DNA of 64,000 nucleotides, taken from positions 496,001-560,000 of the forward strand of contig NZ_AMPG01000002.1 in the NCBI RefSeq assembly GCF_000299415.1, given 5' to 3'. The translations under genes and the position numbers were made by a program. The stretch is from Candidatus Microthrix parvicella Bio17-1. Lineage in GTDB: Bacteria; Actinomycetota; Acidimicrobiia; Acidimicrobiales; Microtrichaceae. Below the pieces are notes generated by a model. It did no database searches. It saw only the letters and a program-made list of their open reading frames with translations, and was not told where the DNA came from. Every line of letters starts with the position of its first letter. Position 1 is the first letter of the stretch. This document shows positions 12,679 to 33,095 of this stretch, one piece after another.

Positions 12679-13386
12679 TTAAAACAACCGTGCGGTCAAC
12701 TTGCGGCGCCACTCCGACGTAGCCGGGTCGTCCGGGTCCAACAACTCCAGCAGCTCCAAAAATCGGGTACGGGCGTCGTCGTCACCCTTGACGCGGTCGA
12801 GAAGAGACGCCAACTCGGTGGTGACCCCACCGACGGGGATCAACCCACCCGAGGCGGCCAGGGCGCGCACATGTCGAACCTCCAGATCGCCCTCGGAGAG
12901 CCCCTCGACGAGGGCGAGCGCCTCCTCGGTGCGGCCGTCGCCGACCAACACCTTGGCCAACGCCACACGCGCACCCTCGTGGGAGGCGTCAATGGCGAGC
13001 GCGGCACGTAGCGACCCTTCGTCGCCGAAGCCGACCAGTTCATCGAGTCGCTCGCTCTCGTCCGCAGGCAGCAGCCCCCGCACAAACTCCGCCACCTTGG
13101 CCTCCGGTTGTGCGCCCAGGAAGTTGTCGACCACCTGGCGGTCCACCAACCCGAAGACCGCCGGGATCGACTGCACCCGAAAAACCTGCGATGCCTGCGG
13201 GTTTTCGTCGACGTTGATCTTGGCCAAGGCCACCTTCCCGCCAACGTCGGCAACGACCTTTTCTAGAATCGGACCCAGGGTCTTGCACGGCCCACACCAC
13301 GGAGCCCACAGGTCGACCACCACCGGAAGCTGTTCGGAGCGTGCCAGCACCTCGGTTTCGAAGGTGGCATCGGTGACGTCGACCAT
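12679..13386 (-). CDS. Thioredoxin-domain protein with C-terminal TPR-like extension (CnoX/YbbN type)
   Basis: The 235-residue protein has an N-terminal thioredoxin fold with active site WCGPC near residue 29 and the cis-proline segment VQSIPAVFG. It is followed by about 120 residues of helical repeats (SLRAALAIDASHEGARVALAKVLVGDGRTEEALALVEGL and on). This layout matches YbbN/CnoX co-chaperedoxins, which guard folding proteins against overoxidation. Active-site Cys are present here, unlike E. coli YbbN. I chose ATG 13384-13386 because the longer open frame upstream has no thioredoxin similarity. A -10-like TATGAT lies 38 bp upstream. Confidence 0.85.
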   Translation of the reverse strand: MVDVTDATFETEVLARSEQLPVVVDLWAPWCGPCKTLGPILEKVVADVGGKVALAKINVDENPQASQVFRVQSIPAVFGLVDRQVVDNFLGAQPEAKVAEFVRGLLPADESERLDELVGFGDEGSLRAALAIDASHEGARVALAKVLVGDGRTEEALALVEGLSEGDLEVRHVRALAASGGLIPVGGVTTELASLLDRVKGDDDARTRFLELLELLDPDDPATSEWRRKLTARLF

Positions 13387-13423
13387 GGGGTGAACCTCGG
13401 AGGTGGGAGTGGTTGGAACCCAC

Positions 13424-13452
13424 ATCATACGGGCCCAGCAATCTCCGATCAC
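13424..13452 (-). promoter_or_regulatory. Candidate promoter of the thioredoxin-TPR gene
   Basis: On the minus strand the hexamer TATGAT (13424-13429) matches five of six -10 positions, about 38 bp before the chosen ATG. The -35 region 17 bp upstream (GTGATC) is poor, so this rests mainly on the -10 match and its position in the divergent gap. Confidence 0.35.
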
Positions 13453-13501
13453 CCAGAGGCGATAGCGTGGCCGAAGCGGGAGAGGACCACGGGAGAAGAC
13501 G

Positions 13502-14548
13502 GTGAGCGACCTACCAGAAGGCATCAACGCCGACGCCGTCGGGGCGTGGATGGCCGAGCACATCGACACCCTGGCCCCGCCACTGACCTACACGTTGATC
13601 GCGGGCGGCCACTCCAACCTGACGTACTCGGTGACCGACACGGCCGGCGGGCACTGGGTGCTGCGCCGTCCGCCGTTGGGGCAGGTGCTGGCCACCGCCC
13701 ATGACATGGCGCGTGAGCACACGATCATTTCGGCGCTTGGGCCGACCGACGTGCCGGTGCCTTCGGTGGTCGGCCTCTGCACCGACGAATCCATCAACGA
13801 CGCGCCGTTCTACGTCATGGACTTTGTCGACGGCGTGGTGGTGCGAGACGAGAGCATCGCTTCGGACCTGACACCCGAGCAGCGAGCCCGCGCCGGCAGC
13901 TCCCTCATCGAGGTCTTGCACACCATCCACACCGTCGACATCGACGCGGTTGGCCTGGGCGACCTCGGGCGCAAAGAGGACTACCTGACGCGCCAACTCA
14001 AACGCTGGAATCGCCAGTACGAGCAGAGCTGCACGCAGGTGGACGAAGGAACGCTGCCCGACCTGGGCACATTGCACGACCTGCTGGCTCAGTCGGTTCC
14101 GCCCCAACAGCGCAGCTCGATCGTGCACGGTGACTACCGCTTGGACAACACCATGCTGGGCTCCGACGGTTCGGTGGTTGCAGTGCTGGATTGGGAAATC
14201 TGCACGTTGGGCGACCCGCTGGCCGATCTCGGCATGCTGATGTGTTACTGGCCCGATTCGGGCGACGCCGCAGCCATGCCCCAGCTTGCCACGGTGTCGC
14301 TGCCCGGATTCCCCCGGCGGGCGGACCTGCTGAACGCCTACAAGAAGCTGTCCGACCTCGACCTGTCCGGCATCGACTATTACGTGGCATTCGGCTACTG
14401 GAAGCTCGGCTGCATCATCGCCGGGGTGTACGCCCGCTACTCAGGCGGCGCCATGGGCGATGCCGGTCGCCAGGGAGCCGAGGGTTTTCGAACCATGATC
14501 GAGGGCATCGTGGAGCTGGCTTACGACGCATTGGAGCACGACACATGA
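13502..14548 (+). CDS. APH-family phosphotransferase (ACAD10/FadE36-like aminoglycoside-kinase fold)
   Basis: The 348-residue protein has kinase-fold landmarks: a glycine-containing nucleotide loop (LIAGGHSNLTYSVTD), Lys/Arg strand VLRRPPLGQ, catalytic loop HGDYRLDN near residue 204 and the metal-binding LDWEICTLGDPLADLG. Close relatives are the kinase-like domains associated with acyl-CoA dehydrogenases (ACAD10-type) that phosphorylate hydroxyacyl-CoA derivatives, rather than antibiotic kinases. The VLRRPPLG stretch is typical of that subfamily. The GTG start at 13502 follows GGAGAAGA. The stop overlaps the next ATG by 4 bp. Substrate is inferred from family only. Confidence 0.85.
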   Translation: MSDLPEGINADAVGAWMAEHIDTLAPPLTYTLIAGGHSNLTYSVTDTAGGHWVLRRPPLGQVLATAHDMAREHTIISALGPTDVPVPSVVGLCTDESINDAPFYVMDFVDGVVVRDESIASDLTPEQRARAGSSLIEVLHTIHTVDIDAVGLGDLGRKEDYLTRQLKRWNRQYEQSCTQVDEGTLPDLGTLHDLLAQSVPPQQRSSIVHGDYRLDNTMLGSDGSVVAVLDWEICTLGDPLADLGMLMCYWPDSGDAAAMPQLATVSLPGFPRRADLLNAYKKLSDLDLSGIDYYVAFGYWKLGCIIAGVYARYSGGAMGDAGRQGAEGFRTMIEGIVELAYDALEHDT

Positions 14549-15434: not shown

Positions 15435-15807
15435 AAACTCCTCACCAATGGCACCCTGATCGTCCATCACGACGTTGCGGACCAACTCGCCGACGTGTTC
15501 GAGGAGCTGTTCGAGAACAACCACCCCATCAGATCGATCATCCCGATTCATCGGTTTGGTGGCACCGGCGCCCCATTCCTACGGGACGCCGCTCGACCTG
15601 AGCCCGCTGGAGAACCCCTGCGTCAGCATCTCGGGCATGACCTCGCCCCCGGCGAGCGAGCGGTACCTCGACCGCGTCCCGAGCCACACGGCGGTGATCT
15701 CCCATGGCGACAACGTCGTCGAGGCCTTCTCACAAACCGGGTGGCAGTGGGGCGGGATCTGGCCCGGCCCGGTGGACTACCAACACTTCTCGGTCAACGG
15801 CCGCTGG
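15435..15807 (+). pseudogene. Decayed M15-family peptidase (frameshift plus internal deletion)
   Basis: Two frames together read as an M15 peptidase. The first frame (15435 to about 15570) gives NGTLIVHHDVADQLADVF then ELFENNHPIRSIIPI. The second (about 15565-15807, shifted by one) gives HSYGTPLDLSPLENPCVSI, then SERYLDRVPSHTAVISHGDNVV, and ends in GWQWGGIWPGPVDYQHFS. These match the order of M15 landmarks (strand, S-x-H-xx-G-xx-x-D, final H), but about 25 residues before the zinc motif are missing. The zinc motif has lost its first Ser/x spacing (PHSYGTPLD), and there is no start codon in the first frame. The remnant abuts the PAC2 stop and runs into the 3' end of the opposite-strand glycosyltransferase gene. 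Confidence 0.7.
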
Positions 15808-17094
15808 GCGCCTTGCGTCGATCATGCTCATCAGGAGTGACGCCATGCCGATCGACAACACCGGAAGGGCCGTCACGTTGAACCTCGGGTTGCCGTAGCT
15901 TGCCGCAGCGCTCACGCACACGATGACCAACGGTGCCGACACGACGAGCCACTCCCAGCCCCACGACCGCCTCCGACCAAGTTGCGCCAGGCCGACGACC
16001 CCGGCGACGGCCAACACAGCGTCAAGCGGGCGGCTTGCCAGCTGCCACCCGTAGCGTCGGGTCTCATCCGCGTCGCGGCGGGCCAGGTCTCGCGGATCCC
16101 AGAGCCCCCACACCCGGGCCTCGCGTGCCCCCAGGACCAGCGGCACGTCGGTCAGGTGCCTTCGGACGTACTCGACGGCTTGCGCCCGTTGGGCGTCGGC
16201 CACCTCCACCTCCGCCTCCCCTCCGGTGGGCGTCGCGTCCACGACGCACGGGAAGCTCCAACTGCCCAGGTCGGGTCCACCGTAGGTGGCATCGCAGTTC
16301 GACCCAGCCAACGCGCTGCTCGGCGAGATGGTTGACACGGCGTAGGTTCCGACCTTCCGATGGTTGCGCCACATCCATGGCCCCACAACCGACGCCACCA
16401 CCAGCACCAGCAGCGACGTCGCCAACAGCCTGGTTCGCAATCCCGTGCCAACGCTCGCCAGCACCGCCGGCAACGCGACGAGCACCACCATCAGTGCCAG
16501 GTCCTGACGGGTCAGAACGGCCACGCCGCACACGGCTCCGAGGGCGATCACCGACGGCCAGCCGACCCCCTGGGTGAGCACCCGATGCGCCAGCACCAGC
16601 GCCGCCAACACCAGGGGTACCGTGAGGTTCTCGCTCATCGTCGAGGAGTCGGCGGCGATGAGCGTCGGGCTCAGCGCCACCGCTGCTGCTGCGAGCAGTC
16701 CGACCCGTGCGTCAGCGAGCGCTCGTCCCAGCAGGGCAACCAGTACCACCGTGATGACACCCGGTACCACCCCGGCCACGCGGACTGACATCGCACCGGG
16801 GCCAACCGCCCACTGCCAGACCGCCTGATAGGCCGGATACGCAGGCGGGAATGCCGCCGTCGACGTCAGGTTCCCCTCGAACAGCGACGTCGGCACCACA
16901 AATCCAGTCCCCGCCAGGATCGAACCGCCCTGCAACTGGTACCAGATGGCATCCAGTCCCGATTGCACCGGTCCGAGCACCCACACCACGTAGCCCACCC
17001 GAACCGCAACCGCCACGGTCGAGATCAGCGTCAGGCTCAGCGCCCACCGTCGAGGGCTCCCCCACCCACGCACGTTCGTCGTCACGCCGGACAT
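15730..17094 (-). CDS. Polytopic glycosyltransferase (GT39/ArnT-like, GT-C fold) with abnormal 3' end
   Basis: The 454-residue protein has about ten membrane helices. The early extracytoplasmic loop contains the Asp expected of GT-C enzymes (SGLDAIWYQLQGGSIL), followed by AAFPPAYPAYQAVW. GT-C enzymes transfer sugars from polyprenyl phosphates on the outer face of the membrane. The last ~26 codons (RRPAAVDREVLVVHRAGPDP and on) are the exact antisense of the M15 pseudogene remnant. The natural C-terminus was therefore probably lost and the frame now reads through into foreign sequence. The ATG start is 39 bp downstream of the preceding gene's stop, so it may be last in the operon. Confidence 0.8.
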   Translation of the reverse strand: MSGVTTNVRGWGSPRRWALSLTLISTVAVAVRVGYVVWVLGPVQSGLDAIWYQLQGGSILAGTGFVVPTSLFEGNLTSTAAFPPAYPAYQAVWQWAVGPGAMSVRVAGVVPGVITVVLVALLGRALADARVGLLAAAAVALSPTLIAADSSTMSENLTVPLVLAALVLAHRVLTQGVGWPSVIALGAVCGVAVLTRQDLALMVVLVALPAVLASVGTGLRTRLLATSLLVLVVASVVGPWMWRNHRKVGTYAVSTISPSSALAGSNCDATYGGPDLGSWSFPCVVDATPTGGEAEVEVADAQRAQAVEYVRRHLTDVPLVLGAREARVWGLWDPRDLARRDADETRRYGWQLASRPLDAVLAVAGVVGLAQLGRRRSWGWEWLVVSAPLVIVCVSAAASYGNPRFNVTALPVLSIGMASLLMSMIDARRPAAVDREVLVVHRAGPDPAPLPPGL

Positions 17095-17113: not shown

Positions 17114-17146
17114 GTTGGCCTGCGACTGGACCATCAGTCGGCCAAC
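17114..17146 (-). terminator. Bulged hairpin at the stop of the 898-residue membrane protein gene
   Basis: Arms GTTGGC (17114-17119) and CGACTG (17123-17128) pair with CAGTCG (17135-17140) and GCCAAC (17141-17146). This gives 12 base pairs with a 3-nt bulge and a 6-nt loop. The stop codon (17134-17136) is inside it. No T-run follows on the minus strand, so it may be a processing or stability element rather than a true terminator, ahead of the last glycosyltransferase gene. Confidence 0.4.
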
Positions 17147-19830
17147 GCGGATGCCAAGTCGTCGTGGTCGAACTCATCGAGCGGCCAGGTACCGAGCACC
17201 CCACCATCCGGGGTCAGCGCCACAACCACGGCCTCGTCGCCGGTTGCAAGCAACTCGTCGATGGACGACGTCGCATACACCGACACTCCGGCAGCAATCG
17301 CCGCGTCGGCGAGGTCAGAATCAAGCCGGGGCACACCGACGAGCAGCAGCGAGTAGTTCGGGGCGTCGAACGCCCGCTCACGCAACGACAACAGCGCCGC
17401 CTCGCACGACGCGCATCCCTGCCGGGTGACCAGCAGCACGGTCGGGCGGTCCGCAGCAAGCAATGACCCCAGCGTGTCATTCAGATCGAACCCCGTCATC
17501 AGCGTGGACCGGGTGGCCTCGCTCAGGCTCCTCTGGGTCGTGCGGGCAACCGGCGCCCGCGCCACCCGATGCCCCGGACCGCCGGCACAGCCGGCCAGCC
17601 CCAACGACCCCACGGCCAGCGCAGACGCCACGACGGCGGGCCGGACGTGTGAAGGCCCTGTGCCACGCCGCCGGGGCCACCAGTACAGGGCGGCCAGCGC
17701 TATCGCGGCGACGAGGAGCCACCACCAGTAGAGAGGATAGGCGCGGTACACGAACTCCACCCGGTGACGGCCCTCGGGCACGGCCACGCCCAGGAACGAC
17801 GGGGTCACCATCTGGGTCGGCACCACCTCACCGTCGACCCGGGCCTCCCAACGTGGATGGAAGTTGGTGGCCGCCGTCACCACCCCGCCACGGTCCATCT
17901 CGACCTCGGCTTCAAAGCGCCCACCGTCGAGGTCGATCGTCGATGCCAGAACCGACCCTGGTGGTCCCTCCAGCGACGCCTCGAGCGATGAGTCATCGGG
18001 TGCGGTCGGCGTTGCCGGGGTTCGTCCCTCCAGGTTCACCACGCGTGCCTGCCACGGGGGACGATCCAGTGCCAGCTCAGTCCGGGCCGCCTCACCCAGC
18101 TCGGCTCGTGAGGTGTTCAGCGGTTCACCGACCGTGTCTACCACCGACACCCAGCCCGAGTCGGGCACCTCATAGAGCGCCAACCCGTCCTCAAGAGCAA
18201 CCAGGTGGGTGCCGATGGGCCGTGCCCGCTGCGCCGGCTGGATCACCCAACGAATTCCGAAACGACGCAGGTCGGCCGCATTGGTGTCGTCAAGGTAGGT
18301 CTCCACATCGGCGCTCAGCGAGGCGATGCGCAGATTGAAACCGATCGAAGACACCGGGTAGTAGGCGAGGACCACCGGCACCGGAGCCCGTCCCACAAGA
18401 AACTCGTCACCCCAGTTGTTGATCCGTCCGGCGTACACCTTGCCGGGCCCCCGCTTCGTCACGTACCCGAGCAGGTCCTCAAGTGCAGACCCCCGAGATC
18501 GGTCCGCCTCAGCCTGTTGGGCAATCCACGAAGCGTCCTCTCCGGCGAACCGCACCCGCTCACGCATTGCAGGCGTGAGGATCACCAGCGCCAGTGCCGC
18601 GGCCCCGACGCTGCGCACGACCGCCCAATGGCGGGTTTCCGGCCCGAACCTCGGGGCCACCGCGGTGTGGCGGCGGGCGGTGTCGAAGATGGCCGTTCCA
18701 AGCCGGTCGAGGGCCGCTCCCGCCAACAGCACCAGCACCAACTGGATGGCCACGTGGTAGCGGTGCAGGAACACCTGATTGGCACCGGGCAGCAGGTCGA
18801 TGATCGGAGCAAATGGATTTCGGCCAACGAACAACACGGAGCCCAGCAGCAACATGGCGGGCAACTCCCGGGCCCATCGAATCGGTGGGCGTCGCCAACG
18901 CAGCAGGGCCAGCACCAGGCCGGCCGAACCGAGCAACGCGATCACCGGCAGGCGACCCCGATCGGTCAGGTCGCCGTGCAGCAGCCACCCGCCCACTTTT
19001 CGCCAACCAAAGGAGTCCGGAAAGTCGCCGCCGGCATCGAAGGCAGAGTCGTTGGTGGCCCACTGGTCGGTCAGCAGGGGCACGAGCACCCAGGCCGACA
19101 TCGCCAACGAACCAACCGCCAGCAGTGCGGTGCGAGGCAGTCGCTCCCGCCACTGCGACGGCCGCACCAACGGCCACAGCCCCAGGCACAACAGCACAAA
19201 CCAGGCCGTGGGGAGATGGCACGCCACGGTGAGGGCCACCGCCGCTCCCGCACGGCCAAAGCGTCGCCCCTCGGCGACGGCCCGGGCCGACCACGCCAGC
19301 GCGAGTGGCGCCACCCACATGCCCCACAGCTGCGACCACAGGCCGTTGCCCAGCCACGAATAGCTGAACAGCTCGAAGCCGTAGCCGGTGGCCGACACCA
19401 GCAGCGGCGAGCACACCGCCGCCAACGCCGCGGCGCGGGGCCGCAGCCCAAAAGCACGGGCCGCGACCGCCACCGCGATCGGCCACGTGGTCCAGAGCGC
19501 CCAGTTGGTCCACACAAACGCCGACTCCGCGCCGACCGCCCAGCCGAGCAACCCGGTCAACGAATGGGGCAGGCTCTGATAGTGATGAAACTGGGCGAGG
19601 CCCGAGCTGAGACGGTTGAACCAACCGTCGAGGGGCAGGTGCCCGGCGCCAATGCGGCTCGACGCCCAATCGACCATCGCCTCGTGAAAGCCCGCGTCGT
19701 TGGGGTAGCTCACCCGCTGCAACAGCGCCCGAGTGGCCCAGCCGTTGGCCGTGACCGTGGCGGCGATCAGCAGCAGGTTGCCCCGGCCCCAGCCGTGTAT
19801 CCAGGTGCGGATGGCGTGGCGGACGTTCAT
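17134..19830 (-). CDS. Large polytopic membrane protein (YfhO-like) fused to a lipobox-like segment and thioredoxin-like domain
   Basis: 898 residues. The first ~420 are membrane helices with short loops (FHEAMVDWASSRIGAGHLPLDGWF, GT-C-like). An extracytoplasmic part to about 690 follows, with a beta-rich section (FHPRWEARVDGEVVPTQM, VPEGRHRVEFVYRAYPLYWW) as in YfhO-type proteins. After a final helix pair comes SALAVGSLGLAGCAGG, which looks like a lipoprotein signal and lipobox. The last ~130 residues form a thioredoxin-like fold with GCASCEAALLSL as the CxxC site and GVPRLDSDLADAAIAAGV. I start at ATG 19830, which overlaps the upstream stop (ATGA). The fusion is unusual; a sequencing frameshift joining two genes is the alternative. 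Confidence 0.8.
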   Translation of the reverse strand: MNVRHAIRTWIHGWGRGNLLLIAATVTANGWATRALLQRVSYPNDAGFHEAMVDWASSRIGAGHLPLDGWFNRLSSGLAQFHHYQSLPHSLTGLLGWAVGAESAFVWTNWALWTTWPIAVAVAARAFGLRPRAAALAAVCSPLLVSATGYGFELFSYSWLGNGLWSQLWGMWVAPLALAWSARAVAEGRRFGRAGAAVALTVACHLPTAWFVLLCLGLWPLVRPSQWRERLPRTALLAVGSLAMSAWVLVPLLTDQWATNDSAFDAGGDFPDSFGWRKVGGWLLHGDLTDRGRLPVIALLGSAGLVLALLRWRRPPIRWARELPAMLLLGSVLFVGRNPFAPIIDLLPGANQVFLHRYHVAIQLVLVLLAGAALDRLGTAIFDTARRHTAVAPRFGPETRHWAVVRSVGAAALALVILTPAMRERVRFAGEDASWIAQQAEADRSRGSALEDLLGYVTKRGPGKVYAGRINNWGDEFLVGRAPVPVVLAYYPVSSIGFNLRIASLSADVETYLDDTNAADLRRFGIRWVIQPAQRARPIGTHLVALEDGLALYEVPDSGWVSVVDTVGEPLNTSRAELGEAARTELALDRPPWQARVVNLEGRTPATPTAPDDSSLEASLEGPPGSVLASTIDLDGGRFEAEVEMDRGGVVTAATNFHPRWEARVDGEVVPTQMVTPSFLGVAVPEGRHRVEFVYRAYPLYWWWLLVAAIALAALYWWPRRRGTGPSHVRPAVVASALAVGSLGLAGCAGGPGHRVARAPVARTTQRSLSEATRSTLMTGFDLNDTLGSLLAADRPTVLLVTRQGCASCEAALLSLRERAFDAPNYSLLLVGVPRLDSDLADAAIAAGVSVYATSSIDELLATGDEAVVVALTPDGGVLGTWPLDEFDHDDLASALAD

Positions 19831-21686
19831 CCGTCGGTGGCCTCGGCGAGTTCGAGGTGCAGCGAGCGCAGGCACACGCTGGACCCGGGCGCCAACGCCA
19901 GGCCGACGCGATCGGCGGTAAAGGGCTCGCCGGTGATCAGTACTTCACCGTCCGGCCAGCGGTCGATCACCTCATCGGCGATGTAGCGCGGGGCCTCCAC
20001 TCCGGCAACGGCCAACCTCGGTGCCGGGTCAACCGCATCGACCAGATCCAGGCGCAAGGTCCACTCGGCGGGTGTCAGCCGGCGGTTGAGCGGGATCCAC
20101 GCCAGTGTCCCGTCGGGGCCCGCCCGTACGCACGTCCCCCCACCCGGCGAGGCCTCCACGGTCCCGGATCCCGTTGAAACGAAGATGTTGGAAAGGTCGC
20201 CGCTGGTGTAACGACCCCACGTCGCCGGGCCAAGGCGTCCGGTGTCGTCGGCAAGCAGCAGGTCGACACCGGGCTGGTTCCACGACGCCGTCACCCCAGC
20301 GAGCCCAAGCGTCACCGAGAGGTGGGTGCCCGAACCGAACTGGGGCCCAATCACAACGTGAGGAACGGTCGTGTCGGCCACGGTCACGTCCCCCCGGTTG
20401 GATGTGGCCTGGCGGTTCAGGCTGGACACGAAACGATCCCGATACTCCCGCGAACGAAACGCCGGGCCCTCGGCCCACGCTGCCGGGATCGATGCCAGCA
20501 TCAGGCCGATTGCGATGGCGCTGAGTGCGACGAGCCGGCCGCGAGCAGTGGCCAGGTCCCGCAAGTTCGGTGTCCCCTCGACTGGTGTCGCACCGCTCCC
20601 AGACCGTCCCCAGGCCAGCCCCACCATCGCAATGACCGGCACCATCCAGGCACCGATCGCCACCTGGCGGTTCACCGTGCTGATCTGCCAGCCCAACTCG
20701 TCGAATCGCGAAGCTCCCAGCGCAGTGCCCCGAAGGAGCCCGACAGCAAGCACCGGACCTGCCAACACCCACCAGTGTCGCCCAACCCTGCGGGCCCACC
20801 ACCAGGTGGCACCGGCGAGCACGAGCACCGACGCGGCCACCAGCAACCAGCCGGCGCCCGACCATCCCGCCTCCGGGGGCCGAATCCCCACCTGAGCCGG
20901 AACGGCGCCGTCGAGCACGCCGCGCACGCCCACCCACGCAGCCGTGGGGAGGGCAACTCCTCCGTCGGAACCCGACAGCCCAGCGGCGATCCACACCACC
21001 GCCGCTCCGCCCAACACTGCGCCGAGCGCCACACCCACACGCCACTGACGCCGCAGCGCCGACCCCACCGAACCTCCCTGGGCGAGCGCCACAAAAACCA
21101 CGATGGCCACCAGAAGCGGCACGGTCAGCACCGAGGCCTCGAACGCGGAGAGCGCCAAAGCCACTGAGGCCCCCACCCCAACCGCCGCAGGCCACCCCGG
21201 CCGACGGATGGACGCCAAAAGAAACCAGACGGCACCCAGTGAACCCAGGGTGGAGCCAAGAACGTTGATCGATGCCGAAAACCACGACAGGGTTGACGGC
21301 CACGACCCATTGACCGCCACGGCGACGGCCGCCAGTTCGGGAATGGGCCGTGCGAGCCCCAGGCGGCGCCCAACGGCCACAGTGAGCGCCAAGCATGCAG
21401 CGAAGCCCCCGATCATCAGGAAAGCGGCGACCAGCCACGACGCGGTGCCCGCCAAGGACACCGCCTCAAAGGCCACCACCAAGCCGGGCATGACGTGACC
21501 GAAGATGTTACGGGTCAGCGCGTCCCAACCGAACGGCGATCGATCCACCACCTGCAGATGGTAGAAGTCGTCGTAGTAGAACCAGCTTTGAGTGACCACC
21601 CACAACGCCGGCGAAATCAACACCGCCACCAGCCCGAGGTCGCCTAGACGCCTCCTGGCCGCATCCCGCCCGGGCGCGGCGCTCAC
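19827..21686 (-). CDS. Polytopic membrane protein, GT-C-like, family not recognised
   Basis: The 619-residue protein starts at GTG 21686, overlapping the preceding stop by 4 bp. About eleven membrane helices occupy the first ~420 residues. Between the first two is an extracytoplasmic loop with WFYYDDFYHLQVV, whose Asp pair resembles the catalytic loop of GT-C glycosyltransferases. A soluble C-terminal part of ~200 residues follows, rich in beta strands, with a carbohydrate-binding feel (GTHLSVTLGLAGVTASWNQP, LDLVDAVDPAPRLAVAGVEA). It is followed by the 898-residue protein with a 4-bp overlap. I infer a role in building or exporting a surface glycan but cannot name the enzyme. Confidence 0.7.
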   Translation of the reverse strand: MSAAPGRDAARRRLGDLGLVAVLISPALWVVTQSWFYYDDFYHLQVVDRSPFGWDALTRNIFGHVMPGLVVAFEAVSLAGTASWLVAAFLMIGGFAACLALTVAVGRRLGLARPIPELAAVAVAVNGSWPSTLSWFSASINVLGSTLGSLGAVWFLLASIRRPGWPAAVGVGASVALALSAFEASVLTVPLLVAIVVFVALAQGGSVGSALRRQWRVGVALGAVLGGAAVVWIAAGLSGSDGGVALPTAAWVGVRGVLDGAVPAQVGIRPPEAGWSGAGWLLVAASVLVLAGATWWWARRVGRHWWVLAGPVLAVGLLRGTALGASRFDELGWQISTVNRQVAIGAWMVPVIAMVGLAWGRSGSGATPVEGTPNLRDLATARGRLVALSAIAIGLMLASIPAAWAEGPAFRSREYRDRFVSSLNRQATSNRGDVTVADTTVPHVVIGPQFGSGTHLSVTLGLAGVTASWNQPGVDLLLADDTGRLGPATWGRYTSGDLSNIFVSTGSGTVEASPGGGTCVRAGPDGTLAWIPLNRRLTPAEWTLRLDLVDAVDPAPRLAVAGVEAPRYIADEVIDRWPDGEVLITGEPFTADRVGLALAPGSSVCLRSLHLELAEATDG

Positions 21687-22486
21687 GCCGGGTTGGACCC
21701 GCCCGAACGTCGCCGCCAAAGCACCAGCCCGGCCGCCACAAGCAACGCCAGAACAACGATTCCGGCCAGCATCCACGTGGCGGCTCCGCCCGACGACGAG
21801 GCCTCATCCGACGGCTCGGCAGCCTCCCCGGCATCAACCGGTGGAGCCGGTTCTTCGGCCTTCTTGATGTCGATCTCGTCACCGGTCAGATCGAACTCCA
21901 CCGAGACCGGCCGGGCCACCGGAACCACCCCATCAGCCGTGGAAACCGAGCCCAAAGAGGCTCCCACCAACTGACCGCCGATCGCGCCGGTGATCCATGC
22001 GGTGTAGGTGCCATCGCCCAATCCCAAGCGGGGCAGACGGCAGCTGGTTTCGGCGTCCGGCGGCAGGGCCTGGACCGGTTCTGGGAAGGTACAACGAACC
22101 ACCAGGATGCCACCACGGGTAATCCACTGGGAATCAGCGGGACCACCTTCGACACTGCCCTCCGGCTCAGACGCAGTCAAACCGTCGGCCACAAGTTCCA
22201 TCCCGATTGGGCTGCCGTTCCATGCCTCACCAGAACGATTCTCAACCTTGAAGGTGAGGCTCTCCGCATCGGCGGCTCCGGTGAGCAACACCTCGATGGA
22301 AGGACAGTCCTCTGACGCCGTCATGGTGGGCAACTCAAGGCAGGCGGGGATGCCGCCCTGCAAGGGTGCTGCACCGGCAGCAGTCGTCGTGAAGCCCAGC
22401 ACCGACATGGCGACAATGCACCCGGCCGCCACGCTTCTCTGCGCCCAACGCGGCCCCCAGATTGGGGGCCGCTCAGCCGAAGGCAA
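21683..22486 (-). CDS. Secreted, C-terminally membrane-anchored hypothetical protein
   Basis: The 267-residue protein has a signal peptide (RSVAAGCIVAMSVLGFTTTAAGAA, cleavage near residue 39). A beta-rich ectodomain with paired Cys follows (CLELPTMTASEDCPS, VVRCTFPEPVQALPPDAETSC), with an acidic/Pro-rich stalk (EEPAPPVDAGEAAEPSDEASS), a C-terminal helix (WMLAGIVVLALLVAAGLVLW) and RRRSGGSNPA. There is no LPxTG-like motif, so anchoring is by the helix. It lies 14 bp after the collagen-like gene's stop and overlaps the next gene by 4 bp. I do not recognise the ectodomain. Confidence 0.75.
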   Translation of the reverse strand: MPSAERPPIWGPRWAQRSVAAGCIVAMSVLGFTTTAAGAAPLQGGIPACLELPTMTASEDCPSIEVLLTGAADAESLTFKVENRSGEAWNGSPIGMELVADGLTASEPEGSVEGGPADSQWITRGGILVVRCTFPEPVQALPPDAETSCRLPRLGLGDGTYTAWITGAIGGQLVGASLGSVSTADGVVPVARPVSVEFDLTGDEIDIKKAEEPAPPVDAGEAAEPSDEASSSGGAATWMLAGIVVLALLVAAGLVLWRRRSGGSNPA

Positions 22487-26208: not shown

Positions 26209-27984
26209 TCACTGGCCGCCCAGGGTCTTGCCCTTACGGGGCCCGGCGATCGGCGCCCAGTCCGCCGGGATCTCCTGAGCGGTCGGAGGAAGCTCGTCGA
26301 ACCCGGTGACGCCGGTTTCGGGATCGAACACGTGCGGTTCGTCGTCGGGCCACTCCCCCGGCAGGTAACGCTTGCCGCCGTCGGAATAGCGCCAGCCACC
26401 CTTGCCCTCAACGCCGCCCTCGTCGAGCGCCATCACAGCCGGATCCCAGGAGATCTCGGTCATGTCATCAAGGGCCACATAGTCAGGGTTGGGAAAGAAA
26501 CCACGGTTACCAAAGCTCACCTGCGGGGCAATCGGCGACGATGGCAGCACCGGCGAGGCGAACAGAACGTCGCGGAACCGCTCCGGCGTCAGATCCGGGC
26601 CGGCCCCCTGCAACGCACCGAACAGCACCTGAAGGTTCGGCACGGCGAGCAGGGTGGCAGCACCGCCGGGCGGGTCGATGCCGAAGTACCACTTGTGTAA
26701 TCCAATGGGGCTGCCCAGACCACCGGCGACCCTCGGAAACAGGCTGGTCGGCCCGAACGCATGCGCCCACTGTTTCTGGTCGTAGGTGCGGCTGAACACG
26801 TTGTTCTCCACCAGGGTTGATCCGCTGGTCACCCACTCGGGGAAGTAGTCCTGCTCGGTGGAGATGCGGGTGAGCGTCTGAGGCGCAATCGGGTCGCCCA
26901 CAAACACGATCGTGGTGACGCCCGCCGACTTGAACTGGCTGAGCATCGCCCGCCCCGTGGAACCGAGCGCCAGCGGGTCGTCGTAGCGCTGAATCTTGGT
27001 CAGTTTGGCGTCGTAGTCGTCGGCCAGGGTCTGTATGAACTGCTTCACCGGATCGTCGTCGGCCTCGGCACCCTCGGCGGCGATCATGGCGATCTTGCGG
27101 GGCTTGTTTTTGAGTGGCCCACCGGCCCACTTGGCCGGTCGGTCGAAGAGCCGCTTTCCCAGGTACTCGGCCACCAGGACCAGGTTCTGGGTGAGCGTCT
27201 TCTGAACTCCCCACTGGGTGGGGTCACGGTCGGCGTAAAACGAGTCGTCGCCAGTGGAGGTGCAGCCCACACAGAGCACGCCGTTGGCCGAAATCGTGTC
27301 GGCGAAGGCGTTGGACAACTGCGGTCCGTTGATGACGGCGAACGGCTTGATGTCGCGAGCGATTGTTTCGGCATCGGCGGTGGCAGAAACGGAGTCCTGG
27401 ATGTTGCCGGTCGCGGTATAGGGAATGAGCTTGACCTTGCGGCCGTAGAACTCGTAATACTCGCCAAAGATCTCGTTGAAGTTGGCATAGGCCCGCTGGG
27501 CATCACCCGGCTTGGTCTTCAGACCGATCTGGCCGTAGATGAACTCGAGGATCGGGTCGCCCGGCTGGTTGAGATAGGCGACCACTTTGATCTCATCCGC
27601 GGTAACACCGGGTGTGGTCTCACCGCCGTTGTCGCCGGTGAACTTGGCGAAGCAGTTCTGCTGAGGAGCCAACGGCAGCGCCAGGGTGCCCGTGTCGGGG
27701 TCGCAGCGATCACCGAAGTCGTACTCATCGAGGGTGCCCTTGGCCTTGGCTTGATCGTAGGTCATGACGCCGGGCGGCAACTCGATATCGGTGGTGTCCT
27801 TGGCCCCGGCCCCCGTCGAGGTGACGGTTGGCGCCGCTTGTGTGCCATCGATGGGGTCGACGAACACGACGACCGCCGCCACCAACGCCAGCGAGGCGAG
27901 AATGGCAACCATCGGACCCCACCGGGCAATTGGACTGGGGCCATGTTCTTCGATGGTCCTGGGTACCTGCGTTCCGCGACTCAT
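26209..27984 (-). CDS. Membrane-anchored ABC substrate-binding protein, LIV (Peripla_BP_6) type
   Basis: 591 residues. Instead of a lipoprotein signal it has a single N-terminal helix (WGPMVAILASLALVAAVVVF, about 23-42), so it seems tethered by that helix. The binding domain has type I periplasmic-binding features: VTADEIKVVAYLNQPGD, AETIARDIKPFAVINGPQLS and GVTTIVFVGDPIAPQTLTR. It is longer than ordinary LivK proteins (~390) because of an N-terminal ~100-residue segment with two Cys and a C-terminal tail (VFDPETGVTGFDELPP). It is the last gene of the unit after the fusion transporter (ATGA overlap). Ligand unknown; the operon context suggests acyl or aromatic acids rather than amino acids. 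Confidence 0.85.
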   Translation of the reverse strand: MSRGTQVPRTIEEHGPSPIARWGPMVAILASLALVAAVVVFVDPIDGTQAAPTVTSTGAGAKDTTDIELPPGVMTYDQAKAKGTLDEYDFGDRCDPDTGTLALPLAPQQNCFAKFTGDNGGETTPGVTADEIKVVAYLNQPGDPILEFIYGQIGLKTKPGDAQRAYANFNEIFGEYYEFYGRKVKLIPYTATGNIQDSVSATADAETIARDIKPFAVINGPQLSNAFADTISANGVLCVGCTSTGDDSFYADRDPTQWGVQKTLTQNLVLVAEYLGKRLFDRPAKWAGGPLKNKPRKIAMIAAEGAEADDDPVKQFIQTLADDYDAKLTKIQRYDDPLALGSTGRAMLSQFKSAGVTTIVFVGDPIAPQTLTRISTEQDYFPEWVTSGSTLVENNVFSRTYDQKQWAHAFGPTSLFPRVAGGLGSPIGLHKWYFGIDPPGGAATLLAVPNLQVLFGALQGAGPDLTPERFRDVLFASPVLPSSPIAPQVSFGNRGFFPNPDYVALDDMTEISWDPAVMALDEGGVEGKGGWRYSDGGKRYLPGEWPDDEPHVFDPETGVTGFDELPPTAQEIPADWAPIAGPRKGKTLGGQ

Positions 27985-30983
27985 GACGCTCCTTCGGGCT
28001 CGATGTCGGCGACACGCCGGCCAGAACGCGCCACCACCTCGGGGCTGCCGCCCAGGTAGCTGGCCACCACCTCGGGGTGGGACAACACCTCATCAGGCGG
28101 ACCGGAGGTGATCACCCGACCGGTCTCGAGCGCCACCAACCGGTCGGCGACGCTCGAGAGCAGACCCATGTCGTGCTCGACGATCACCATGGCGCACTCC
28201 AACTCGTCGCGCAGTCGCAGCAGCAGCGGGCCCAACGCCTCGGTTTCGCGCTGAGCGATGCCGGAGGATGGCTCGTCAAGCATCACCACGCTGGGCCGCT
28301 GGGCCACCACCGCTGCCAGGTCGACGATACGGCGCGAGCCGGTGGACAGCTCACCGACGAATTTGTCGCGGTAATCGCCCAGCCCAAACCGTTCGATCAG
28401 CTCGTCGGTGTCGCGCCGCACCTTCCACTCGGAGAGCACCAAGGGTGGCGTTCGCAGCACCGCGTCGGCGGTGGAGCGCACCTCCACCCAGCGTTCGTGC
28501 GCCAGAGCCAGCGCCTCGGTCACGGTGAGGCCCGGAAACAGCCTGGCGTCCTGAAACGACCGGCCGAGCCCTGCCTTGGCCCGACGGGCCACGCTCAGGT
28601 TTGTCAGCTCGACGTTGCCGAGACCGATGGTGCCCGACTGCGTGGGTACAAACCCCGAGATGGCATCGAGCACGGTGGTCTTGCCTGCGCCGTTGGGTCC
28701 GATCAGACCCACGATCTCTCGTGGACGAACCTCGAGGGACACCCCGTCGACGGCCCGTACCCCGCCAAACGCGCACACCAGGTTGCTCGCCTGGAGCACG
28801 GGCGAATCAGGCATCGGCGCCGAGGATGGCCGATCACCTGTGGAGTGCGTCGGCCCTTCTCCAAGAAACACCGAGCGCAACAGGTCGGGCCGCTCGAGCA
28901 GTTCGGCGGTGGGGCCGGTGAAGCGGAGTTTGCCCTTCTCCATGAACAGTGCCCGATCGGCCAGGGTGAGCGCCACGTTGACCGACTGCTCCACCACAAT
29001 GACCGTGGTGCCCGACGCTGCCACCTGACGCACCAGGCTCACCAGGTCCTCAACCACGACCGGAGCCAGTCCGAGCGACAACTCGTCAATCATCAGCAAT
29101 CGAGGCCTGGCGAGCAGTGCCATGGCCAGGGCCAGTTGTTGCTGCTGCCCGCCAGAGAGGTTGGCCGCCGGTTCGGCCATCCGGTCGGCCAAAACCGGGA
29201 ACGGCGCACACACCTCCTCGATGCGACGCTTCAGGTTGTGGGGATCCGAGCGCAGCATCCACCCGGCGGTACGCAGATTCTCGGCAACGGTAAGGCTGGG
29301 GAAGGTGCCCTTGCCCCCGGGCATCTCGCCCAGGCCCAGGTGGGCGATCGCTTGGGGCGGGGCGTGCGTGATGTCGCGCCCATCGAAGATCACCGCCCCC
29401 CGGCCGGCGTGCACCGTGCCGGCGATCGCCCCCAGCAGCGTCGACTTGCCTGCGCCGTTGGTGCCGAGCAGTGCCACCACCTCCCCCTCCCCCACCTCCA
29501 TCGACAGGCCGGTGAGTACCCGCAGGTTGTCGTAGGAGACGTGCAGGTCGCGAACGACCAGCAGCTTGGCCCGCCCCTCGGCGCGCTCCCGTGCGTCCTC
29601 AGCCCGTGCGAGGGATCCTGTCCAAACGTCGGCGATGTCACCCTGGATCGTGGAGGCCGCAGTCGACACGATCAGCCCACCCACTACGAGGACAGGCACC
29701 ATGACCAGCATGCCCACCCGGGCGCTGTAGCGGTCGGTGAGCCAACCGATCAGCGGCAACACCAACAAGCCGGGGATGGCCCAGTAGCTGGCGATGGCAA
29801 AGCCCACCGCTCGGGCCCGAGCCGGGATGGCCACCGAGAGGCTGGCGAGCAGGCCGGGCAGGATGATGGCCAGGCACGAGGTGAGTGCGATGTTGGCTAC
29901 GACGGTGAGCCAGACGGTGGGGGCCAGCGCGAATGCGAGTGCAAACACGCCCGACACGATGGCGACCACCCGAAGAAACTTGAACACCAACGAAGGGTCG
30001 CGCATGAACAGCTTGGTTCCCATGGCGGCGCCGACAGCCAAACCGACGAACTGGAACGGTTCAACCGCGGCGGCCAGATACCCGCGCTGGAGCTCGTCGA
30101 GGTTGTACGTCTGCTCGTACAGGATGCCTGCCAGGCTGACGAAACCGATCAGCGACACCGACAGAAACGGCACCGAATACCAGAGGCGCCGCAGCGACGG
30201 GATCTCGTTGCACAGCCGGAATGCCTCCTCGAAGCTGGCCTGAGGTTCGGCCAATGCAATCATCGCCTCGTCGCCACCGGCGGCCTTGCGCTCCTGGCCG
30301 CCCCGAACCGGCTCACGCAGGCGCAACGCCAGCGCCGCGAAGACGACGGTCGGGATGACGAACACGAAAAACGGGGTCCGCCAGGAACCGGTGGCCGCAG
30401 CCAGGCCCCCCGCCAGAAGCGGCCCGGCGAACTGGCCCAACACGTTGGCACCACGATGGATCGAGTACACCGACGAGCGTCGGTCGACGGCGTAGTAGTC
30501 GGCCAGGAGGGAGTTGTGAGTGGGGTCGACGACGGCGCGGCCGATGCCGGCACCGGAGCGGGCAATCACCAACATGAGCGCGCCGTTGGCCAGCCCGGTG
30601 AACAGCGAGAACACTCCCCAGGCGATGGCCCCCGCGATGGCGATGGGCACCCGCGGATATCGATCGGCAGCCACCGCAATGGGCAACTGCAACAAGAACG
30701 CGATCAGCAGGCTGATGGCGACGAGCGACAGGATGCCTGCGTTGGACAAGCCAAGGTCGTCGCGAATGTTGGGGATGAGGATGCCAAACCCGGTGCGGTC
30801 CAACTCGTCGACGGCGTTGAGGCCGAACAACACAACCAGGGCCATCAGCGGGCCGTCGCCAACGGCCCGACGCAGCGCCTCGATGGGGTGTCGAATCGAC
30901 GGCCACCAATGCGACGGCTGAACGACCGTGCGGCTGGACTCCAGCAGCAGCGAGCCCCAGCCCACGGGCTGCTCAACGCTCAT
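27981..30983 (-). CDS. Fusion protein: MFS transporter plus two ABC ATPases (LivF-like and LivG-like)
   Basis: 1000 residues. About 45-455 form a twelve-helix MFS unit (LIPNIRDDLGLSNAGILSLV, IGRAVVDPTHNSLLADYYAV). From about 475 an LivF-like ATPase follows, with Walker A GTNGAGKST near 508, LSGGQQQQ near 612 and Walker B LLMIDELSLGLAP. From about 735 an LivG-like ATPase follows, with Walker A GPNGAGKTT near 765, an altered signature LSTGSRR near 878 and Walker B VVMLDEPSSGIAQRE. Known LIV systems use separate LivF and LivG, and MFS carriers are not ATP-driven, so one chain with both is notable. Start and stop overlap neighbours by 4 bp (ATGA). It should work with the LivH-LivM fusion and binding protein. 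Confidence 0.9.
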   Translation of the reverse strand: MSVEQPVGWGSLLLESSRTVVQPSHWWPSIRHPIEALRRAVGDGPLMALVVLFGLNAVDELDRTGFGILIPNIRDDLGLSNAGILSLVAISLLIAFLLQLPIAVAADRYPRVPIAIAGAIAWGVFSLFTGLANGALMLVIARSGAGIGRAVVDPTHNSLLADYYAVDRRSSVYSIHRGANVLGQFAGPLLAGGLAAATGSWRTPFFVFVIPTVVFAALALRLREPVRGGQERKAAGGDEAMIALAEPQASFEEAFRLCNEIPSLRRLWYSVPFLSVSLIGFVSLAGILYEQTYNLDELQRGYLAAAVEPFQFVGLAVGAAMGTKLFMRDPSLVFKFLRVVAIVSGVFALAFALAPTVWLTVVANIALTSCLAIILPGLLASLSVAIPARARAVGFAIASYWAIPGLLVLPLIGWLTDRYSARVGMLVMVPVLVVGGLIVSTAASTIQGDIADVWTGSLARAEDARERAEGRAKLLVVRDLHVSYDNLRVLTGLSMEVGEGEVVALLGTNGAGKSTLLGAIAGTVHAGRGAVIFDGRDITHAPPQAIAHLGLGEMPGGKGTFPSLTVAENLRTAGWMLRSDPHNLKRRIEEVCAPFPVLADRMAEPAANLSGGQQQQLALAMALLARPRLLMIDELSLGLAPVVVEDLVSLVRQVAASGTTVIVVEQSVNVALTLADRALFMEKGKLRFTGPTAELLERPDLLRSVFLGEGPTHSTGDRPSSAPMPDSPVLQASNLVCAFGGVRAVDGVSLEVRPREIVGLIGPNGAGKTTVLDAISGFVPTQSGTIGLGNVELTNLSVARRAKAGLGRSFQDARLFPGLTVTEALALAHERWVEVRSTADAVLRTPPLVLSEWKVRRDTDELIERFGLGDYRDKFVGELSTGSRRIVDLAAVVAQRPSVVMLDEPSSGIAQRETEALGPLLLRLRDELECAMVIVEHDMGLLSSVADRLVALETGRVITSGPPDEVLSHPEVVASYLGGSPEVVARSGRRVADIEPEGAS

Positions 30984-33061
30984 GGGCTCACCTCGGCCGA
31001 TTCGTCGACGGATTCGTCAGCAGGACCCGCCGACGCGTCCGTCAACACCTCGGGATCGCCGAGGTCGGACAACGACGGCACGATGATGCCGCGGCGCCGT
31101 GCCAGGTTGGACAGCATCAGGTCGCGGAACCGAACAAGGGCGCCGCCAACCCCGTCGGGCATCACCAACAGCACGAACAACGCCCCGGCGGCGGTGGCGA
31201 ACAGGTTCCACGGTGCGGGCAGCAGCCACCCGCTGCCACGCAAGATGAACGCACCGATGACGGCGCCGGGGAGGCTGGCCAAGCCGCCCAAAACCACCCC
31301 GATGAACGTGGCCACGCTTTCCTCCGGGAGGAACAACGCCTGTTTGAAGGCGCCCTGGTGCAGCGTGAACACCGCACCGGCGGCGCCGGCGATCGCCCCG
31401 GACACGGCGAACGCAGCCAGCTTGGCCTGAGTCACCGCCACACCGTAAGCCCGGGTGGCGTCCTCATTTTCCCGGATGGCGATGAGGACCCGTCCCGAGC
31501 GGGACCGACGCAGGGCCGTCGCCGCCAGCAGCGACACCACCAGAAGGCCCAAGGCCAGGAGGTAAAGCTCGGCCGGGGTGTCCATGGGTATGCGACCCAG
31601 GAGCGCCGGCCGATGACCGGCGAACGAACCGGTGGGGATCCAGTCGAAGTAGCCGTTGTCGAAGACCCCGTTGGAGCATGCCACTGCCAAGGCCAGGGTG
31701 GTGACCGCCAGGTACACCCCGCGGATGCGCAGCGCCGGAAGACCCACCACCACCGCCGCAACCGCCCCGGCACCCGCACCCATGCAGATGGCCAGCGCCG
31801 GATCGACCGCGTGAGTCTGATTGGCCCAGGCAAACACCGCGCCGCCCATGCCGGCGAAGGCCATCTGCCCAAGGCTCAGCTGACCCGCCCAACCGGACAG
31901 AATCACCAGCGACACGCCGACGCTTGCGATGATCAGCACCGCTCCCAACTTCAACATGGCGCCCGTGGACAAGACGAACGGACACACCGCAAGAGCCGTC
32001 ACACCGAGCGAGACCAACCCCAACCTGGCGGCGGTCACCTCCCAGCGCCGGGCCAGTTCTGCGGGCACCGGCCGAACGTCGGAGGCCAGGCGCCACGACG
32101 AGGTGTCGTCACGGTCCGCCCGGGTGACCCCCATGCGCCGCAACAACAGCGCACCGATGATGATGGCGGCCAGCAACGGCGCCACCAGTGCGCCATCGCC
32201 GGTTTGGAACCGCACCGCAAGCTCGAGAACGCCCAGCACCACCGACGAGAACACGATGACTCCCACGTGCGTCATGCGGCCCAGCACCAGGGCGGCGATG
32301 GCCCGGAGCAGCAGACCGAGGCTGGTGCCATACCCAACTCCCAGGCCTCCGGTGCCCGCGGTGAGGAAGAGGGCCACGAACGCTCCGACAGTTGCCAGCG
32401 TCCAGATCAGGCTCTGGAGCCGCTTCACCGGAATGCCAAGCGTCAGCGCACGGGAGCTGCGGTCGGCCGAGGCACGAATTGCGACCCCAAGCGCCGTTCG
32501 GTTGAGAACCAACACCAATCCGATCAGCAGCAACGGCACCACGAAGAGCGCCACCAGGTCGGAACCGTCGAACACGGTCCCACCGATCTCAATGGACATA
32601 CCAAAAGGTTCGGGCAAGGAACGCACCGACGGCGAGGCCCCCCAGGCGCGCGGCAGGATCAGGGCACCGAAGCCGAGCAGCTGGGCGAGGCCAATGGTGG
32701 CCACGGTGATAAGCACCCGCGGCGCGTCGAAGAAGCGGCGGATGATCAGGCCCTCCACCGCCACGCCCAGCACCACCGCCGCCGCCAGCCCGGCGGCCGC
32801 GCACGCCCAATAGTTCCAGCCCCATTGATCGGCGAGCAGCACGGCCAGGGTGGCCGGCACGATACCCAGGTCACCGGCGGCAAAGTTGATGACCCGGCTG
32901 GCGCGCCACACGAGCGCCAGGCCAACCGCAGCCAACGAGCCGACGAGGCCGGCCAGCGCGCCGGCGACGAAGGTGCCCAACGGTACGGGCAACAGCACCA
33001 ACTGAGCCACCAGCAGCACGGCAGGCGCCAAATACGGCGACGCGCTGTGACGCCAGTCCAT
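30980..33061 (-). CDS. Fused LivH-LivM branched-chain-type ABC permease
   Basis: About 693 residues. The first half (about 20-310) matches LivH (AAVGLALVWRASRVINFAAGDLGIVPATLAV, VLITVATIGLAQLLGFGALI). The second half (about 360-650) matches LivM (GWAGQLSLGQMAFAGMGGAVFAW, LRIRGVYLAVTTLALAVAC, RSRSGRVLIAIRENEDATRA). Such transporters normally have two separate permeases; here they are one polypeptide, mirroring the fused ATPases downstream. ATG 33061 follows GGGGGGCAGGG; TTG 33094 and GTG 33085 are upstream alternatives near a GGAGGAGG. The C-terminal tail after the last helix is acidic (SAGPADESVDESAEVSP). Confidence 0.88.
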   Translation of the reverse strand: MDWRHSASPYLAPAVLLVAQLVLLPVPLGTFVAGALAGLVGSLAAVGLALVWRASRVINFAAGDLGIVPATLAVLLADQWGWNYWACAAAGLAAAVVLGVAVEGLIIRRFFDAPRVLITVATIGLAQLLGFGALILPRAWGASPSVRSLPEPFGMSIEIGGTVFDGSDLVALFVVPLLLIGLVLVLNRTALGVAIRASADRSSRALTLGIPVKRLQSLIWTLATVGAFVALFLTAGTGGLGVGYGTSLGLLLRAIAALVLGRMTHVGVIVFSSVVLGVLELAVRFQTGDGALVAPLLAAIIIGALLLRRMGVTRADRDDTSSWRLASDVRPVPAELARRWEVTAARLGLVSLGVTALAVCPFVLSTGAMLKLGAVLIIASVGVSLVILSGWAGQLSLGQMAFAGMGGAVFAWANQTHAVDPALAICMGAGAGAVAAVVVGLPALRIRGVYLAVTTLALAVACSNGVFDNGYFDWIPTGSFAGHRPALLGRIPMDTPAELYLLALGLLVVSLLAATALRRSRSGRVLIAIRENEDATRAYGVAVTQAKLAAFAVSGAIAGAAGAVFTLHQGAFKQALFLPEESVATFIGVVLGGLASLPGAVIGAFILRGSGWLLPAPWNLFATAAGALFVLLVMPDGVGGALVRFRDLMLSNLARRRGIIVPSLSDLGDPEVLTDASAGPADESVDESAEVSP

Positions 33062-33095
33062 CGAACCCTGCCCCCCGGCCGTCACCTCCTCCAAT

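Follow-up and report, generated by a model that had tools for sequence, protein, structure and literature searches.

A probable lineage-restricted fusion of a YfhO-type membrane protein with a thioredoxin-like lipoprotein in Candidatus Microthrix parvicella

We found a single gene in Candidatus Microthrix parvicella Bio17-1 that is probably a genuine, lineage-restricted fusion of two adjacent, overlapping genes, one for a YfhO-type (GT-C) putative glycosyltransferase and the other for a thioredoxin-like lipoprotein. In the closest homologue found, from a genome (referred to as G292) that falls in a different family of this order, the YfhO protein and the thioredoxin-like lipoprotein are encoded separately by two neighbouring genes that overlap; because of this arrangement, the window gene was interpreted as a fusion of two such neighbours. 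Here, the window is the whole 64,000-nucleotide stretch of contig NZ_AMPG01000002.1 that was analysed, and the coordinates of the features described below are window positions (Table 1).

Overall architecture of the fused protein

A sequence-only reading of this DNA had described a single 898-residue frame in which a YfhO-like membrane protein passes into a lipobox and then into a thioredoxin fold with a GCASC site, and both the frame and the order of domains were borne out. The minus-strand frame runs from the ATG at 19830 to 17134 and encodes 898 residues without an internal stop; upstream of this start, the open reading frame extends further, to a GTG at 19875. A search of the organism's own genome revealed a single copy of the gene, again without an internal stop. 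The YfhO family (PF09586) was recognized with a score of 46 bits against a gathering cut-off of 28.5, the lipobox and the GCASC site (from residue 805) were evident in the sequence, and the thioredoxin fold was indicated by the predicted structure. The structure model of the full-length protein had a mean pLDDT of 43.7 and was used solely for the order of the elements; in this low-confidence model, a β-rich part of the YfhO moiety at approximately residues 627-695 is expected to lie outside.

Beyond the last YfhO helix (residues 697-715), the hydropathy profile revealed a second hydrophobic span at residues 732-750, which ends in the LAGC motif with Cys748 and is separated from the helix by the basic segment PRRRGTGPSHVRP. 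Residues 736-748 of this span read SALAVGSLGLAGC. Lipoboxes follow the pattern [LVI][ASTVI][GAS]C, and the segment combines such a motif (LAGC, residues 745-748) with a hydrophobic span and a basic head at R730. The lipo-invert C-terminal anchoring domain of NCBIfam (NF058595) scored 19.7 bits at residues 697-754; because this value is far below the cut-off of 37, membership in that family is not claimed.

Table 1. Window coordinates of the fused gene, its parts and the neighbouring cluster genes.
Feature	Coordinates	Strand	Basis or remark
Fused gene, 898 aa	17134..19830	-	ATG start
YfhO-type polytopic membrane protein, residues 1-716	17683..19830	-	Pfam PF09586; homologues stop soon past the last helix
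Last YfhO membrane helix, residues 697-715	17686..17742	-	Hydropathy
Basic junction PRRRGTGPSHVRP, residues 719-731	17638..17676	-	Sequence; cytoplasmic location according to the inferred topology
Signal-peptide-like segment RPAVVASALAVGSLGLAGC, residues 730-748, with lipobox LAGC and Cys748	17587..17643	-	Aligns with the signal at the N-terminus of the G292 lipoprotein
Thioredoxin-fold domain, residues 780-898	17137..17493	-	Model and fold matches
CxxC (CASC), residues 806-809	17404..17415	-	Sequence; CTRC in G292
PMT_2-family membrane glycosyltransferase, next gene downstream	15730..17094	-	Pfam
649-aa membrane protein, FYYDDF motif near the start	19827..21776	-	Overlaps the fused gene by 4 bases; G292 homologue
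267-aa probably exported protein, C-terminal hydrophobic span	21683..22486	-	Four Cys conserved in G292
Collagen-like protein, 1222 aa	22501..26169	-	Pfam Collagen, DUF11

The thioredoxin-like domain

When residues 741-898 were modelled alone, the model revealed the strand-helix order of a thioredoxin fold with modest confidence (mean pLDDT 61, pTM 0.57). A Foldseek search with this model gave a best E-value of 6.9e-6, and VIA-align yielded a Z-score of 11.8 over 113 residues with an rmsd of 2.8. The structures matched by the two programs were ResA, DsbE/DsbF (DsbF from Mycobacterium tuberculosis), the pneumococcal lipoproteins Etrx1 and Etrx2, which are named as lipoproteins in their PDB titles, and peroxiredoxins. 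C806 and C809 sit at the start of the helix formed by residues 807-820, which places the CxxC motif at the beginning of the first core helix.

The domain is similar to Etrx1/Etrx2 of Streptococcus pneumoniae and to ResA/DsbE/DsbF in its predicted fold and CxxC motif, but it differs from them in that it reaches no Pfam or NCBIfam thioredoxin family, does not have the usual cis-proline and is not free-standing. The best Pfam match in the domain was the Glrx-like family PF05768, with an E-value of 0.14 and 13 bits against a cut-off of 26; NCBIfam gave no thioredoxin family, and a sequence search of solved structures gave no match. Upon inspection, the cis-proline that precedes the third core strand was absent both from the window protein (residues 861-874, around E866/A867) and from the G292 lipoprotein, and classical oxidoreductase activity is uncertain because no proline occupies this place. 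A search for VKOR in the window's genome gave no match.

Comparison with the closest homologue

The G292 YfhO protein was 50% identical to the window protein over residues 23-727. Its gene stops shortly past the last helix (...EVPA and then the stop codon), and its TGA and the start ATG of the following gene lie in a four-base overlap (ATGA). This next gene contains 191 codons in another frame, begins with MTDPGAGSSARPLVGALALLVAATLAACG and encodes an ordinary-looking lipoprotein (MTDPGAGSSARPLVGALALLVAATLAAC...GCTRC) with the lipobox signal at its N-terminus, whereas the corresponding segment of the fused protein begins only at residue 730 of 898. The window domain and the G292 lipoprotein showed 27% identity over 113 columns, with an E-value of 5e-5 in a two-sequence BLASTP comparison. 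An Arg-Pro head was common to the window segment and the G292 lipoprotein, with a distance from the Arg to the Cys of 18 residues in the former and 17 in the latter, and all three cysteines of the window C-terminal part (the lipobox Cys and both CxxC Cys) were aligned with cysteines in G292. As judged from the sequence comparison, the two overlapping genes likely represent the ancestral state and would later have been joined into one. This comparison lends support to the earlier suggestion of a lipoprotein at the C-terminal end, because the closest homologue has a free-standing lipoprotein gene for the same part.

Distribution of the fusion

The full-length protein was searched against four genome sets that overlap one another. 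Counting its own genome, matches were obtained in 10 of 61 relatives (E ≤ 0.001), in 24 of 298 genomes of the order (E ≤ 1e-20) and in 10 of 396 phylum genomes (E ≤ 1e-30); among the 24 genomes of the G292 family, one had a match. One pattern scan of genome contigs gave two loci. The C-terminal tails were read at 32 and 8 loci, which include near-identical sequences and repeated, overlapping records of a single place. Apart from some that are cut by the contig end (L046, L052, L062 and L127), they terminate past the last helix, and none continues into a thioredoxin domain. The same fusion, for which the sequence-only reading had proposed looking in relatives, was sought across the relatives, order, G292-family and phylum sets and not found, and the fusion is known from one genome.

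When the C-terminal 179 residues were searched against the 298 genomes, weak matches were obtained, the best outside the own genome having an E-value of 1.5e-6, and the separate copy in G292 scored at best 0.221. Absence elsewhere is no proof, because this search is insensitive and did not clearly recover the G292 copy. Among the 24 YfhO loci, only that of G292 had a thioredoxin lipoprotein beside YfhO, as determined by tblastn, an insensitive search in which the window domain itself missed G292. The G292 lipoprotein, searched against the 24 genomes of its family, found itself and weak partial matches only. A search of plasmids gave no match. Two of the 19 loci read from the C-terminal search (L021 and L031, in genomes G135 and G239) contained a real thioredoxin-type domain preceded by different membrane helices; in both, a different membrane protein carries a GCGAC thioredoxin-type domain after several hydrophobic stretches. 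Several other loci of this search were rejected as ABC transporters or other enzymes.

The junction between the two parts

The junction was analysed in silico for single-base changes only, covering all one-base insertions and deletions over 84 bases (n = 168) as well as stop-making substitutions. Every insertion or deletion (168/168) left the YfhO frame overrunning the lipobox Cys by 21 or 36 codons, and none of them produced a short overlap like the four bases of G292. In the cases sampled, the sole possible lipoprotein starts were the short GTG734 and GTGs located 26 to 45 codons before the Cys. Substitutions could create a stop at codons 717, 718, 727, 742 and 743; the best start would then be GTG734, which gives a signal without a basic residue, and none of the in-frame starts that could be paired with such a stop would give a signal peptide with a charged head. 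The finding that had been named as one that would overturn the fusion, a single wrong base dividing the frame into two ordinary genes, was therefore not borne out in simple form, because neither the indels nor the substitutions give an ordinary pair.

An assembly or sequencing error, such as one involving two or more bases, may still have joined two overlapping genes like those of G292 in this record, and we consider this unlikely. G292 has precisely such a two-gene state, with the second gene in another frame, the fusion is absent from every other genome read, and the coding signal within the junction is weak in all frames, all of which would fit an error. Codon usage favoured the fused frame on both flanks. 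An error is opposed by the failure of all 168 one-base indels to yield a normal pair, by the longest homopolymer in the junction being 4 bases, and by the neighbouring cluster genes, whose frames are uninterrupted and which match those of G292 over their length. A genuine fusion is the preferred explanation.

Organization of the gene cluster

The genes in the window are arranged in the order collagen-like protein, 267-residue probably exported protein, 649-residue membrane protein, fusion and PMT_2 membrane glycosyltransferase, and G292 contains homologues of the first four in a different order. The 649-residue membrane protein matched no Pfam or NCBIfam family and was found, among the 298 genomes of the order, in its own genome and G292 only; a profile built from these two sequences gave two weak partial matches in 395 genomes of the class. 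This protein is possibly an undescribed GT-C type transferase. The Gly-rich and DUF11 N-terminal part of the collagen-like protein was 56% identical to that of G292, a genome of another family, and such identity across families may reflect transfer of the whole cluster.

Comparison of the cysteine columns revealed that 9 of 9 window cysteines were common with G292 in the collagen-like stretch, which was cut so as to end one residue before the window's next cysteine, together with 4 of 5 in the 267-residue protein and 2 of 5 in the 649-residue membrane protein. Because both genomes keep the YfhO and thioredoxin-like pair next to a collagen-like surface protein and two further proteins whose cysteines are conserved, disulfide handling for the cluster is suggested. 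The sequence-only reading had connected disulfide chemistry with surface glycan enzymes, a connection drawn by inference, and the partner is described more precisely as a collagen-like surface-protein cluster.

Collagen-like repeats were also located near YfhO homologues at L014, L064, L082 and L090, although this was not a significant enrichment: with L063 included, 5 of 24 loci had them, compared with 1 of 20 control stretches (p = 0.14, with loci that differ in length). At L014 (7303-11528, Actinobacteria bacterium IMCC26256), two large collagen-like ORFs are convergent with the YfhO homologue. Additional features were observed elsewhere in the window. A minus-strand gene at 12679-13569, near the cluster but separate from it, encodes a thioredoxin domain followed by TPR-like repeats. 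A 1000-residue protein (27981-30983, minus strand) contains an MFS transporter domain and two ABC ATPase stretches of the branched-chain amino acid type, and it adjoins a 704-residue chain (30980-33094) with two BPD_transp_2 permease stretches.

Comparison with known systems

YfhO proteins transfer a lipid-linked sugar outside the cell, and to our knowledge they end after the last helix. The window protein is similar to YfhO of Bacillus subtilis and Lmo1079 of Listeria (GT-C) in being polytopic and in scoring above the PF09586 cut-off; whereas the YfhO homologues that we read end past the last helix, the window protein adds a lipobox and a thioredoxin domain. The nearest conceptual precedent is FbcH, the cytochrome b/c1 precursor of Bradyrhizobium japonicum, in which a polytopic membrane protein is joined to an exported protein and an internal signal sequence is cut; unlike that of the window protein, the FbcH signal is not a lipobox. 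The parts of the fusion are of known kinds, and their arrangement was not met in the literature searched, which also covered polyproteins and collagen-like proteins with disulfides and contained no paper on YfhO, an internal lipobox and a thioredoxin lipoprotein in this combination.

LTA glycosylation in B. subtilis depends on yfhO (PMC5836110), and a review places YfhO among the GT-C enzymes (PMC8035078). The available text on the Streptococcus mutans pgf operon (Cnm, PgfS, PgfM1 and PgfM2) describes membrane proteins that adjoin, and are partly co-transcribed with, the surface protein that is modified; PgfM1 and PgfM2 help to modify Cnm, an adhesin that contains a threonine-rich region (PMC5856776). 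The window differs in having a thioredoxin partner, whereas that text mentions none for the pgf operon (PMC5856776). The PgfM1 profile matched residues 648-713 of the fused protein with 18.6 bits, far below its cut-off of 1400.

Proposed topology, processing and role

We infer that the two parts would be expressed as one chain, in which the former signal peptide of the lipoprotein would now lie within the protein as a membrane segment. From the last YfhO helix, the chain would enter the cytoplasm and continue into a short, basic, positive-inside loop, and the former signal segment would then cross back out, so that Cys748 and the thioredoxin domain would end up outside, as in the unfused form. 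Lgt and LspA may still recognise the lipobox, in which case the thioredoxin domain would be set free as a lipoprotein; otherwise it would remain tethered to the transferase. The window's genome contains an Lgt gene with a score of 205 bits as well as two matches to LspA with 101 and 97 bits. Release as a lipoprotein appears slightly likelier than permanent tethering. Either way, the domain could perform thiol-disulfide chemistry for the surface proteins of the cluster, namely the collagen-like protein and the two partners with conserved cysteines. The YfhO and PMT_2 enzymes probably glycosylate these surface proteins; by analogy with PgfM1/PgfM2 and Cnm, the Gly-Pro-Thr/Ser triplets of the collagen-like protein would offer many hydroxyls to the transferases. 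In its fullest form, which we put forward tentatively, the proposal is a polyprotein matured by the lipoprotein pathway: one chain, with Lgt and LspA acting on an internal lipobox, would supply both parts in equal amounts and couple glycosylation of the collagen-like protein with its disulfide formation.

Two other accounts of the product were weighed. A real fusion may never be cleaved, in which case the old signal segment would be a plain membrane helix and the thioredoxin domain would stay attached to the transferase as its outer domain, where it would act either on the transferase's substrate proteins or on the transferase. The lipobox is internal, the literature searched offered no precedent for lipidation at an internal lipobox, and the topology is workable without cleavage, whereas the retention of LAGC and its Cys, the short hydrophobic span of the signal-peptide type and the presence of Lgt and LspA argue for processing; we regard an uncleaved product as a serious possibility that falls short of an even chance. 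Separate synthesis of the lipoprotein from an internal GTG at codon 734 of the fused frame is, by comparison, very improbable. Between residue 700 and the lipobox Cys, the in-frame candidates are GTG734, GTG740 and TTG743, of which GTG734 gives the longest signal, MASALAVGSLGLAGC, but this signal has no positive charge and, by inspection, no purine-rich ribosome-binding sequence lies just upstream of it.

If the internal lipobox is used, Lgt and LspA would accept signal segments behind a polytopic membrane protein. The rule of the N-terminal signal would then be broader, and other internal lipoboxes would need to be re-read. Independently of its use, the comparison of the two genomes ties a thioredoxin-like lipoprotein to YfhO-type transferases and to a collagen-like protein rich in conserved cysteines, and it suggests, in a form open to testing, that protein glycosylation is paired with disulfide formation in these poorly known actinobacteria.
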